NCBI RefSeq assembly: GCF_025857195.1
Contig: NZ_CP109787.1
Span: 1,739,501-1,803,500 of the forward strand
Source: Leisingera thetidis
GTDB lineage: Bacteria > Pseudomonadota > Alphaproteobacteria > Rhodobacterales > Rhodobacteraceae
Length of the DNA stretch: 64,000 nt
Direction of reading: 5' to 3'
Position numbers and translations under genes: made by a program. Positions 2,500-5,143 of this stretch are shown here, piece by piece; position 1 is the first letter of the stretch, and each line of letters opens with the position of its first letter. Under the pieces are notes generated by a model. The model was not told the DNA's origin. It did not search any database and saw only the letters and a program-made list of their open reading frames with translations.

Positions 2500-2959
2500 G
2501 TTGGTGGCTTCCTGTTTCGCGGGACGTCCATTGCGGCCTTGTGCGCGCGTTGCACCAATCCGCGGGGGGCGCAGCGCGCTGAATTTTCAGCCTTTGGCCG
2601 AACCGTGAAGAGCGTTTGTGCGCTGCGGCAACGCGCCGGCCACTGCCGTTGCCCCTTGTTCGAGGCCAAGGAATTCCCGAAAATGCGGCGCAGGGGCTGC
2701 TCCGGGCGTTGCAGTTTCTCTCCCCAGTTCCAGCCGGAGCGCCAGCCGCACGGCACCGGGCCGTCTTCGGCGGAGCCGGGATATCCTCGGCCCGGAATCC
2801 TCCGGCATTGCGGTGGCGATCCGCTGCGCCAGCCGGCATGGTGAACCCCGCTGAGCCGCCAGCCCCGGGTTTTCTCCGAAGATTTTCAGGGTTCTTTTAG
2901 AAAGATTTTCTAGTTTGTTCCGGGATTCGAGGAACCAGAAAGCGAAGGCAGGACAGACC
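2500..2959. other. 460-bp intergenic region without a convincing gene
   Basis: Open frames exist on both strands but none has a recognisable domain, a good ribosome binding site or family resemblance; they look like by-products of high G+C. Near the 3' end (about 2881-2920) composition turns AT-rich, as expected for the promoter of the acetyltransferase gene. There TAGAAA-GAT-TTTCTA (2898-2912) is a short perfect inverted repeat that could be an operator. Confidence 0.5.
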
Positions 2960-3583
2960 ATGGCGACACCGGAGAACTTCAAGACTGCTCCCATTGGCAA
3001 CGGGCAGCTGGAAATCGGCCGCTTTACCTACGGGTATGAGGCAATGGATATCCAGGAACAGGGCGGTGGTTCCAACGTGGCAATCGGCTCCTTCTGCTCG
3101 ATCGGGCGGGGCGTGCGGGTGATGCTGGATGCCTCGCCGCTGCTGGACCGGATTACGGCCTTCCCTTTTGGCGAGGTGTTCACCGAGGAGCTGGGCGGCG
3201 CCGACGTGCATGTGCCGCAGCAGCGCGGCGGCGATGTAACGATCGGCAATGACGTGTGGATCGGGGCCAATGCCACCCTGCTCGCAGGGGTGACCATCGG
3301 CAATGGCGCGGTGATCGGCCCGAATGCCACCGTGGCGGGCGATGTGGGCGCCTATGAGGTCTGGGCGGGCAACCCGGCCCGGCTGGTGAGCAAACGTTTT
3401 GACAATGCGGTCTGTGAAAAACTGCAGGAGCTGCGCTGGTGGGACCTGCCGCTGCCGCTGATCCAGGAAATGGCGCCTTTGCTGTCGGCGCAGCCCACGG
3501 TAGAGCTGATCGAGGGGCTGCAGGGGATCGTCAGTGACCTTGTCACCTTCACCGGCGGCAGCGCGGACGGCAGCGCAGCCTGA
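2960..3583 (+). CDS. CatB/Vat-type hexapeptide-repeat acetyltransferase
   Basis: This 207-residue protein belongs to the left-handed beta-helix acetyltransferases (xenobiotic acetyltransferase branch). Hexapeptide repeats are visible in two blocks: about residues 35-50 (VAIGSFCSIGRGV) and 95-125 (VTIGNDVWIGANATLLAGVTIGNGAVIGPNATV), followed by the family segment YEVWAGNPARLVSKRF. Family members use acetyl-CoA to O-acetylate chloramphenicol, streptogramins, sugars or other hydroxyls; the substrate here cannot be read from sequence. The ATG at 2960 follows AGGA with good spacing; an upstream in-frame ATG at 2915 lacks one. It is monocistronic, and a 136-bp gap separates it from the globin gene. 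Confidence 0.88.
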   Translation: MATPENFKTAPIGNGQLEIGRFTYGYEAMDIQEQGGGSNVAIGSFCSIGRGVRVMLDASPLLDRITAFPFGEVFTEELGGADVHVPQQRGGDVTIGNDVWIGANATLLAGVTIGNGAVIGPNATVAGDVGAYEVWAGNPARLVSKRFDNAVCEKLQELRWWDLPLPLIQEMAPLLSAQPTVELIEGLQGIVSDLVTFTGGSADGSAA

Positions 3584-3719: not shown

Positions 3720-4088
3720 ATGCCGCAATCCATCTACGAGAAATACGGCGGATTCAGTGCCATAAGCCGTGTGGTGATGACCTTTTACGAGATGGCGCTC
3801 GAGTCCGATCAGATCGGAGACTACTTCGCCGATGTCGATATGGCGCGGTTGATCGATCACCAGACCAAATTCATTTCCTCGCTGCTGGGCGGGCCTGCAT
3901 CATTCAGCGACGAAAGGCTGGAGGCGGTGCACCGGGCCTTGGCCATCAGCCATGAGGATTTCGATGAAATGGGGGCGCTGCTCAAGGCGGCGCTGGAGCA
4001 GCATGGCCTGTCCGAACCGGATGTGCGGACCACACTCTCGGCGATCGAGGCCAAACGGAATATCATCGTTGCCAGGACTGCCGCATGA
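3720..4088 (+). CDS. Group 1-like truncated hemoglobin
   Basis: This 122-residue protein has the length of a truncated globin. It starts with IYEKYGGFSAISRVV (A/B helices), has Phe22/Tyr23 near the B10 region, the E-helix segment HQTKFISSLLGGP, and VHRALAIS with His71 as the likely proximal heme ligand. Truncated globins bind O2, NO or CO. The ATG at 3720 follows GGGGG. The last bases overlap the next start (ATGA at 4085-4088), so it is translationally coupled to an adenylate cyclase. This suggests it serves as a separate heme sensor or gas-scavenging partner for the cyclase, though that is inference. Confidence 0.88.
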   Translation: MPQSIYEKYGGFSAISRVVMTFYEMALESDQIGDYFADVDMARLIDHQTKFISSLLGGPASFSDERLEAVHRALAISHEDFDEMGALLKAALEQHGLSEPDVRTTLSAIEAKRNIIVARTAA

Positions 4089-5143
4089 GCATTGCCGCCA
4101 TCAACGAGCAGCTGCTCCGGGCGATTGGCGTCGGGGTGGCGGTTGTGCGGGCCTCGGACTTCGGTTTTGTTTTCCACAACCAGCCCTTTGCGGAATGGTT
4201 CGGCACCCCGGGCCCGCACGCCGCCCTGACCGACGCTATCGAGGGGTTGAGCCCGGAGGATCTTGGTCCGCTGTGCGAGGAAGGTCTGCGCTATTCGGCG
4301 GAACTGAAAATCAAGCGCAAGCGCCGCACCCTGGTCTTTGCCATCAACATCTCGTTAGCCAGCCATCTGGACGAGGCGCTTCTGGTGGTGGAATGCCAGA
4401 ACATCACCCGCATCCGCGAGCTGGAGAGCATGATCGACAGCTATTCCGCCATGGTCGAGCGCAACACCCGCGAACTGGAGCGCGAAAAGGAACGGGTGGA
4501 GCGGCTGCTGCTGAACCTGATGCCGCGCCAGGTCTATGAGGAGTTCAAGACCTTCGGCGTGGTGACCCCGCAGCTGTATCCGCAAGTGTCGGTGGTGATG
4601 CTGGATTTTGTCAATTTCACCGACTTCGCCTCCCGCACCGATCCGACCGTAACCCTTGGAGAGCTGAACGACATCTTCACCGCCTTCGACCGCATCGTCG
4701 AGCAATTCGGCTGCGAGCGGATCAAGACCATCGGCGATGCCTATCTGGCGGTGTCCGGAATGCCGGAACCGGTGCCGGAGCACGCCACCGCGGTCGCCCA
4801 CTGCGCCACCCGCTTCCTGCGCTACCTGGACCGGCGCAATCAAAGCCATCAGCACAAGTGGCAGGCGCGGATCGGGCTGGGCACCGGCTCCGCCGTCGGC
4901 TCGGTGGTGGGGATCCAGAAATACGTCTATGACGTTTTCGGCCCGGCGGTGAACCTGGCCTCACGCCTGCAGGTCTTTGCCAATCCCATGAAAATTGTGG
5001 CACCAGCAGAGATGAAGGAGGCACTTTCGGAGGAATTCCGCGTCACCGACATCGGACCCGAGGACATCAAGGGCATTGGCGAGGTTCATCTGGTCAATGT
5101 CGGCGGCGAACTGAGCACGCCGCAGCCGGCCAGCCGGTTCTAG
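4085..5143 (+). CDS. Class III adenylate cyclase with PAS-like N-terminus
   Basis: This 352-residue protein has a PAS-like N-terminal domain (about 1-108), a coiled-coil linker (about 109-145, ending LLLNLMPRQVYEEFKTFG as in gas-regulated cyclases) and a class III cyclase domain (about 160-335). Metal-binding Asp174 and Asp218 are present. Lys214 (IKTIGDAY) and Asp283 (YDVFG) occupy the base-specifying positions and indicate ATP, hence cAMP, rather than GTP. Asn290 and Arg294 (AVNLASR) are the transition-state residues. No transmembrane segment is visible, so it is cytoplasmic. It overlaps the upstream globin gene by ATGA. A gas- or redox-responsive cAMP source is the natural hypothesis. Confidence 0.9.
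   Translation: MSIAAINEQLLRAIGVGVAVVRASDFGFVFHNQPFAEWFGTPGPHAALTDAIEGLSPEDLGPLCEEGLRYSAELKIKRKRRTLVFAINISLASHLDEALLVVECQNITRIRELESMIDSYSAMVERNTRELEREKERVERLLLNLMPRQVYEEFKTFGVVTPQLYPQVSVVMLDFVNFTDFASRTDPTVTLGELNDIFTAFDRIVEQFGCERIKTIGDAYLAVSGMPEPVPEHATAVAHCATRFLRYLDRRNQSHQHKWQARIGLGTGSAVGSVVGIQKYVYDVFGPAVNLASRLQVFANPMKIVAPAEMKEALSEEFRVTDIGPEDIKGIGEVHLVNVGGELSTPQPASRF

Follow-up and report, generated by a model that had tools for sequence, protein, structure and literature searches.

Separate heme sensors that act on the product of a neighboring gene are already known: in the H-NOX systems described in PMC12329717, a free-standing heme sensor acts on a signaling enzyme, either HnoK or a c-di-GMP enzyme, and the genes are adjacent in Caulobacter. 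Globin-coupled sensors also use a globin as the gas sensor of a signaling output, but sensor and output form one protein and the globin is of the 3/3 type (PMC7082302). HemAC-Lm of Leishmania links heme-based O2 sensing to an adenylate cyclase within a single protein (PMC12755159). Cyanobacterial GlbN and Chlamydomonas THB1 are group 1 globins in which the residue at position E10 is able to ligate the heme iron: GlbN uses its distal His as ligand, with a conformational change coupled to the dissociation of that His (PMC11904497), and Lys E10 ligates the iron in THB1 (PMC7082302); the portions of both sources that were open to us mention no cyclase partner for either protein. We found no report of a gene pair formed by a truncated hemoglobin and a cyclase in the literature searched, which consisted mostly of papers outside subscription and is therefore weak evidence of novelty, and no such pair is mentioned in the accessible parts of PMC1592074, PMC4720485, PMC7082302, PMC11904497, PMC12329717, PMC12755159 and PMC13313319.

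We analyzed a stretch of 64,000 nt of DNA (hereafter, the window; G000:C1:1739501-1803500) that carries such a pair, with both ORFs on the + strand. The first gene (3720..4088, +) encodes a group 1 truncated hemoglobin of 122 aa followed by a TGA codon, and the second (4085..5143, +) a protein of 352 aa with a predicted PAS, signaling-helix and class III adenylate cyclase architecture. The start codon of the cyclase and the stop codon of the globin share the same four nucleotides (ATGA; 4085..4088, +), an arrangement consistent with translational coupling; this overlap between a 122-residue globin and a class III cyclase had been proposed in the first-pass annotation and was borne out by the ORF list and by Pfam. 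The mechanical ORF call also offers a longer globin of 184 aa starting at a GTG codon (3534), but we preferred the ATG at 3720 because most of the 120 listed globin homologues are 122 aa long. Of 94 records (one being a duplicate of the window), 73 have an overlap of exactly 4 nt and six have one of 11 nt; the remaining 15 were scored as gaps, some of which result from uncertain automatic starts (L101, L102, L103), and one of them (L107) presents an overlap of 1 nt on separate inspection.

The two genes probably encode one receptor in two pieces, that is, a trans-acting heme sensor of gas or redox state that would control cAMP. As in the H-NOX systems, the heme sensor would be separate from the signaling enzyme, but here the sensor is a truncated globin, the output is a class III adenylate cyclase and the genes overlap. 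Compared to globin-coupled sensors, the globin is unfused and belongs to the 2/2 group 1 instead of the 3/3 type, and the functions joined in HemAC-Lm are distributed over two proteins. The earlier statement that heme sensors are usually fused to their outputs was thus half right: H-NOX proteins act on a neighbor's product (PMC12329717), and it is the class of globin and the cyclase output that differ in the present case.

The best named matches of the pair are from Leisingera. We searched for relatives of the cyclase without reference to the globin and kept the best 80 of 169 relatives. The globin was found directly upstream on the same strand in 80/80 of these loci, whose titles include Leisingera, Ruegeria, Tritonibacter, Shimia, Roseibium, Stappia, Limibaculum, Pelagibius and assemblies of Rhizobiaceae and Kiloniellaceae. 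When these were pooled with 13 alphaproteobacterial loci (one of which, L095, is the window again), L138 and the window, both genes were present, as two separate genes, in 94 of 95 records (93/94 without the duplicate), and the only exception (L106, in G027) has both genes broken. A search of 149 Rhodobacteraceae genomes located 13 copies of the cyclase in 12 of them (E up to 1e-60) and likewise 13 copies of the globin (E up to 1e-12), confined to these 12 genomes and each adjoining a cyclase by coordinates. The chance of drawing the same 12 genomes is 1 in C(149,12), or 6e-18, under an assumption of independence that related genomes do not satisfy. A lack of conservation of the pair had been set in advance as an observation that would refute the proposal, and we found the opposite, both genes being adjacent in all 12 genomes that carry them.

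The pairing extends beyond this family to Stappia, Roseibium, assemblies of Kiloniellaceae and Rhizobiaceae, and Novosphingobium. Among 289 alphaproteobacterial genomes, 13 possess the cyclase and the globin lies beside it, by coordinates, in 13/13, one pair being broken; when the limit was relaxed, at least 48 further class III cyclases appeared in these genomes and, among the matches listed, none lies beside a listed globin. A clear gap separates the two sets of listed matches (E 2.3e-99 or better for cyclases of the paired type; 6.4e-49 or worse for the rest). Among 398 genomes of the phylum, at least three possess the cyclase: the window's, one of the same family and one of the same class. 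The distances between globins and those between cyclases are correlated (r = 0.91; 92 records), although shared ancestry alone also raises r. In the samples taken, which consist of a selection of genomes and of loci picked for their similarity, the pairing is near obligate.

We detected no globin-cyclase fusion among 315 candidates (261-830 aa) in a word-based search with the joined pair in which the globin part alone was scored. The sole match was a 327-aa protein carrying PF01968 and PF19278 (25% of the scored part), families that we take to represent a hydantoinase, and it was discarded as spurious or chimeric. The cyclase yielded no phage match at 1e-40 and one plasmid record at 1e-80, and nine other plasmid records contain short DNA matches to part of the cyclase.

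The globin matches the Pfam family Bac_globin (PF01152; E = 6.4e-16; 59.1 bits against a cut-off of 21) and the solved structure nearest to it is that of a group 1 truncated hemoglobin (E = 1.5e-14, or 8.7e-22 when the family profile is used); the group 1 assignment relies on this score above the curated cut-off and on the closest solved relatives, which are of group 1. The hallmarks of this group, namely His F8, Phe CD1 and two Gly-Gly motifs, are each present in 94/94 records, and the residues fixed across these same records (one being a duplicate) are G10, G11, Y23 (B10), F36 (CD1), D46, H47 (E10), Q48 (E11), F51, G57, G58, P59 and H71 (F8). The helix labels come from alignment to solved globins combined with the conventional globin numbering. 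Tyr23 (3786..3788, +) is placed in the distal pocket and aligns with the Tyr of the Tetrahymena globin, where one solved variant presents a Phe; His71 (3930..3932, +) is the predicted proximal heme ligand. These features suggest that the globin would bind heme.

We compared 27 representatives of the family (mean identity 49%) to 16 other truncated hemoglobins of matched divergence (50%), from which L001 and L119 were excluded. Seven residues (F12, S29, D46, H47, T49, K50 and D101) reach 90% or more within the family, whereas no more than 2/16 of the other proteins have any one of them. Four of these seven lie on helix E around the heme: D46, H47, T49 and K50, each present in 0 or 1 of the 16. 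They belong to the stretch D46-H47-Q48-T49-K50 (E9-E13; 3855..3869, +), whose residues are found in 26 or 27 of the 27 representatives. This family-specific signature is not absolute, with exceptions at position 29 (Asp in L139, L153 and L156), position 50 (Gln in L139), position 49 (Ser in L154) and position 12 (Ile in L144). His47, which aligns with the His of cyanoglobin, is a candidate distal heme ligand, so that the heme may be six-coordinate. Cyanoglobin has other residues at the positions of D46, T49 and K50, and the geometry of the helix suggests that these three should lie on its outer face and may touch a partner.

Alternatively, the globin could be a scavenging enzyme (NO dioxygenase or peroxidase) that is merely co-expressed with a cyclase sensing something else through its PAS part. 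Tyr B10 together with Gln E11 would suit an enzymatic globin of high affinity; however, Gln E7 is also named for that type of high-O2-affinity protein (PMC11904497), and E7 (position 44) is mostly Leu in the paired globins (Leu 81, Met 9, Gln 3 and Ile 1 in 94 records). In addition, a truncated hemoglobin of Roseobacter denitrificans, belonging to another group, has peroxidase activity (cited in PMC4720485). One close relative of the globin (E = 2.8e-40), in G039 (L119), was found without the cyclase, which indicates that the globin can have another use; in this single protein, D46 and H47 are retained and positions 12, 49 and 50 are occupied by I, A and Q. A scavenger should, however, often occur without this cyclase, and none was listed in the 149 Rhodobacteraceae genomes at E 1e-12. 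The family-specific residues of helix E and the retention of the globin beside catalytically dead cyclases (see below) also speak against this explanation. The near-obligate pairing and these dead cyclases make co-expressed scavenging hard to accept, and we consider it unlikely. We also observed that the cyclase-less globin of G039 (L119/L158) sits upstream of a different gene, which presumably encodes a Rieske-type dioxygenase.

The cyclase matches Guanylate_cyc (PF00211; E = 2.5e-41). Its AlphaFold2 model is of moderate confidence (mean pLDDT 77.4; pTM 0.52; alignment of 20 rows) and presents strands and short helices over residues 16-106, one long helix over residues 107-145 and a catalytic domain over about residues 160-340. 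The first part (residues 1-106; 4085..4402, +) would comprise an N-terminal helix and a PAS-like domain, according to our own reading of the order of strands and helices in residues 16-106 of the model, and it yielded a PAS_8 match below the cut-off (18.1 bits for a cut-off of 21.8; E = 0.0026; residues 8-62). Residues 107-165 (4403..4579, +) form a putative signaling helix and cyclase transducing element; their mean conservation is 0.91-0.94 per 15 residues, about equal to that of the catalytic motifs. The catalytic domain, delimited by Pfam and the alignment (residues 166-340; 4580..5104, +), contains D174, K214, D218, D283, N290 and R294, which presumably correspond to the class III residues, i.e., the two metal-binding Asp, the Lys/Asp for adenine, the Asn and the Arg. 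All six are present in the window protein and absent in part from five relatives. Asp174/Asp218 and Lys214/Asp283 had been singled out in the initial reading and were confirmed across relatives: D174, D218, D283, N290 and R294 are found in 93/93 records, window included, and K214 in 91, with Arg in the other two. As Lys214/Asp283 point to ATP as substrate, the window protein is predicted to be a class III adenylate cyclase producing cAMP. A genome-wide Pfam search yielded 14 cyclic-nucleotide-binding matches.

Soluble guanylate cyclase is built in the order PAS, helix, class III cyclase. The window cyclase shares this order, and its catalytic part and helix align with soluble guanylate cyclase chains. 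A match of residues 93-152 to HNOBA is weak and below the cut-off (20 bits for a cut-off of 23.4). In contrast to soluble guanylate cyclase, however, the heme module would be the separate globin, the residues point to ATP and no H-NOX domain (PF07700) was found in the globin or the cyclase when Pfam families were considered up to E 0.01. We did identify one H-NOX (HNOB) domain elsewhere in the window's genome (G000:C1:1054903-1055367; E = 9e-22), which suggests that this genome may have two heme gas sensors.

The PAS part of the cyclase presents no conserved His (best column 59/92) and its Cys104 is found in only 78/92 records, which makes a heme of its own unlikely. This bears on the view that the globin acts through a small molecule only, by removing, making or delivering NO, O2 or heme that the PAS part would sense. 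Although such a route would explain near-obligate pairing without contact, the PAS part offers no conserved His to ligate heme and the family-specific residues on the globin surface would be left unexplained, so we regard it as improbable.

We favor direct control of the cyclase by the globin. The truncated hemoglobin would hold heme and respond to O2, to NO or to its own heme redox state; given Tyr B10 and Gln E11, NO is no more likely a signal than O2 (or heme redox state). At rest, His E10 would probably cap the heme distally. A ligand may displace this His and shift helix E, whose outer face (D46, T49, K50) could then alter its contact with the cyclase partner, which is probably a homodimer. 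The change would be relayed through the PAS and the signaling helix to the catalytic domain and would alter cAMP production. We counted in favor of a two-piece receptor the pairing, the overlap, the correlated distances, the invariant heme pocket, the helix-E signature, the lack of a conserved PAS His, the persistence of the pair where other neighbors differ, the dead cyclases that keep their globin and the use of related globins as domains of other signaling proteins; we counted against it the cyclase-less G039 globin, the failure to find a fusion, the exceptions to the signature, the fit to enzymatic globins and the lack of a strict FNR or CRP site. Overall, the initial proposal of a separate globin feeding a cyclase in trans is partly supported: pairing, and globin retention beside dead cyclases, make it the best-supported reading.

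We compared 28 cyclases (one of them, L150, from a broken pair) and observed that N290 and R294 are lost in five, some of which also lack D174, D218 or K214. These pseudo-cyclases are found in L139 (plasmid pLA3 of Novosphingobium pentaromativorans), L153 and L154 (two copies in G773), L155 (G674) and L156 (G689). The globins of all five loci retain Y23, F36, D46, H47, Q48 and H71. In a tree built from the globin and cyclase residues 1-165, L139, L153 and L156 group in one clade (support 100), and the intact L157 and L144 are the respective sisters of L155 (91) and L154 (84); if these branches hold, the catalytic residues were lost at least three times. Over residues 107-165, L139, L153 and L156 are 83-85% identical among themselves, compared to 68-97% in seven intact pairs; L155 is 66% identical to L157, and L154, which looks decayed, is 39% identical to L144. 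Both metal residues are retained in L139 and L155, which could therefore still form a heterodimer with another cyclase, and one metal residue is also missing in L153, L154 and L156. The retention of the globin by pseudo-cyclases argues that the globin and the cyclase-like protein form one receptor.

In four of the five loci with pseudo-cyclases, the immediate neighbor of the pair is a PAS histidine kinase, always of the same family. It follows the cyclase by 1 nt in L139, 28 nt in L153 and 2 nt in L156, and is divergent within about 120 nt of the globin in L155. The order on pLA3 is globin, 4 nt, cyclase (49% identity), then the PAS histidine kinase with a receiver and an OmpR-type regulator; the adjoining kinase of L153 and L156 has no receiver, and a full kinase with its regulator lies 6-8 kb away. 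Kinases of this family were also found about 1-4 kb from intact pairs (L086, L088-L094, L147, L157 and L160, the latter chosen for its kinase; L089 and L094 are truncated where the locus ends), and in L147 the regulator precedes the globin by 222 nt on the same strand. The kinases of pLA3 and L088 are 43% identical and their regulators 67%. Weaker kinase matches (76 to 141 bits; L079, L143, L148 and the window) were taken as unrelated family members. Strong matches were found in at least six of the 149 genomes, five of which are among the 12 with the pair (P = 8e-6, Fisher test among the matches listed, uncorrected for ancestry); the sixth (G687) covers the C-terminal half only.

These observations lead us to suggest, tentatively and with less than even confidence, that the truncated hemoglobin and the PAS/signaling-helix cyclase protein constitute a receptor core of general use that has switched its output over evolution: cAMP in most lineages and, where catalytic residues were lost, a PAS histidine kinase, together with an OmpR-type regulator, that would read the dead cyclase as a relay. 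In this phosphorelay variant, the kinase would answer instead of the catalytic domain. A stronger version of this idea holds that cAMP is not the main output even where the site is intact, the cyclase-like protein relaying the globin signal to others such as the linked kinase. The existence of pseudo-cyclases, the linkage of the kinase to the pair in 14/99 cyclase-bearing loci plus L160, and the full-length kinase matches in 5/149 genomes, all five with the pair, would fit this version; against it, the metal, Asn and Arg residues are intact in 93/93 records including the window, and no kinase of the linked family was found for the window's genome at E 1e-75 among the matches listed. We judge it very improbable, and cAMP is retained as the predicted output of the window's pair.

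To our reading, the loss of catalytic residues in at least three lineages with the globin retained, and the adjacency of the kinase, are what is new in this analysis. The role of truncated hemoglobins in most bacteria is unsettled, and the pair links one of them to a single partner with a measurable output; as this partner is the same in every sample bar one relative, the question of sensor or scavenger is testable with two purified proteins. If true, our interpretation would add a second trans-acting heme-sensor architecture beside H-NOX and a gas or redox input for bacterial cAMP, and the pseudo-cyclases would represent a natural case of an enzyme turned relay. The pair may also offer a compact ligand-controlled cyclase.

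The genomic context of the pair varies. The window neighbors rplM, rpsI, TetR, PPK2 and metA accompany it mainly in Roseobacter-type loci, and 19/80 loci match none of seven tested window neighbors, which indicates that the pair survives rearrangement. Neighbors were not retained as a clue to function since they are mostly unrelated elsewhere, apart from the kinase with its regulator and one shared gene set. Upstream of the globin, 94 records yielded 0 strict FNR/FixK and 0 CRP sites; loose FNR sites (5 versus 3.7 in plain shuffles) and another pattern (2 versus 1.0) showed no clear excess. A hexapeptide acetyltransferase gene, with Vat/CatB matches far below the curated cut-offs, lies directly upstream of the globin in the window (2915-3583); its presence close to the pair is limited to most of the Leisingera-type loci and to L067. 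The gene set shared around the pseudo-cyclase pairs of pLA3 (L159, 7328-17674) and G773 (L153, 8996-14806) comprises a PLP enzyme (with a glutaredoxin in G773), a PLP decarboxylase, OsmC and an FAD oxidoreductase, possibly a small-molecule pathway under the control of the pair. In G674, a second, classical globin (PF00042; 140 aa; L155, 7604-8026) converges on the pseudo-cyclase gene.

Finally, some CheA-type kinases of alphaproteobacterial genomes carry group 1 truncated hemoglobin domains internally, one or two per protein (L165 2616-5654, L166 1896-4895, L164 1354-4953, L168 2-2620, L131 1057-2427 and L124 2-1471; the L131 record is cut and L124 was judged by sequence only). Their domain order is Hpt, globin, dimer domain, ATPase and CheW, with a receiver in L164-L166. 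We also found a truncated hemoglobin at the N-terminus of a chemoreceptor with an MCP signal domain and a PAS (L167 2965-5829; G287), and a truncated hemoglobin-PAS frame cut by a contig end (L169 2483-3532; G194). The occurrence of group 1 globins as domains of CheA kinases and chemoreceptors in other alphaproteobacteria indicates that such globins can be signaling inputs. Both G287 and G194 also hold the globin-cyclase pair.
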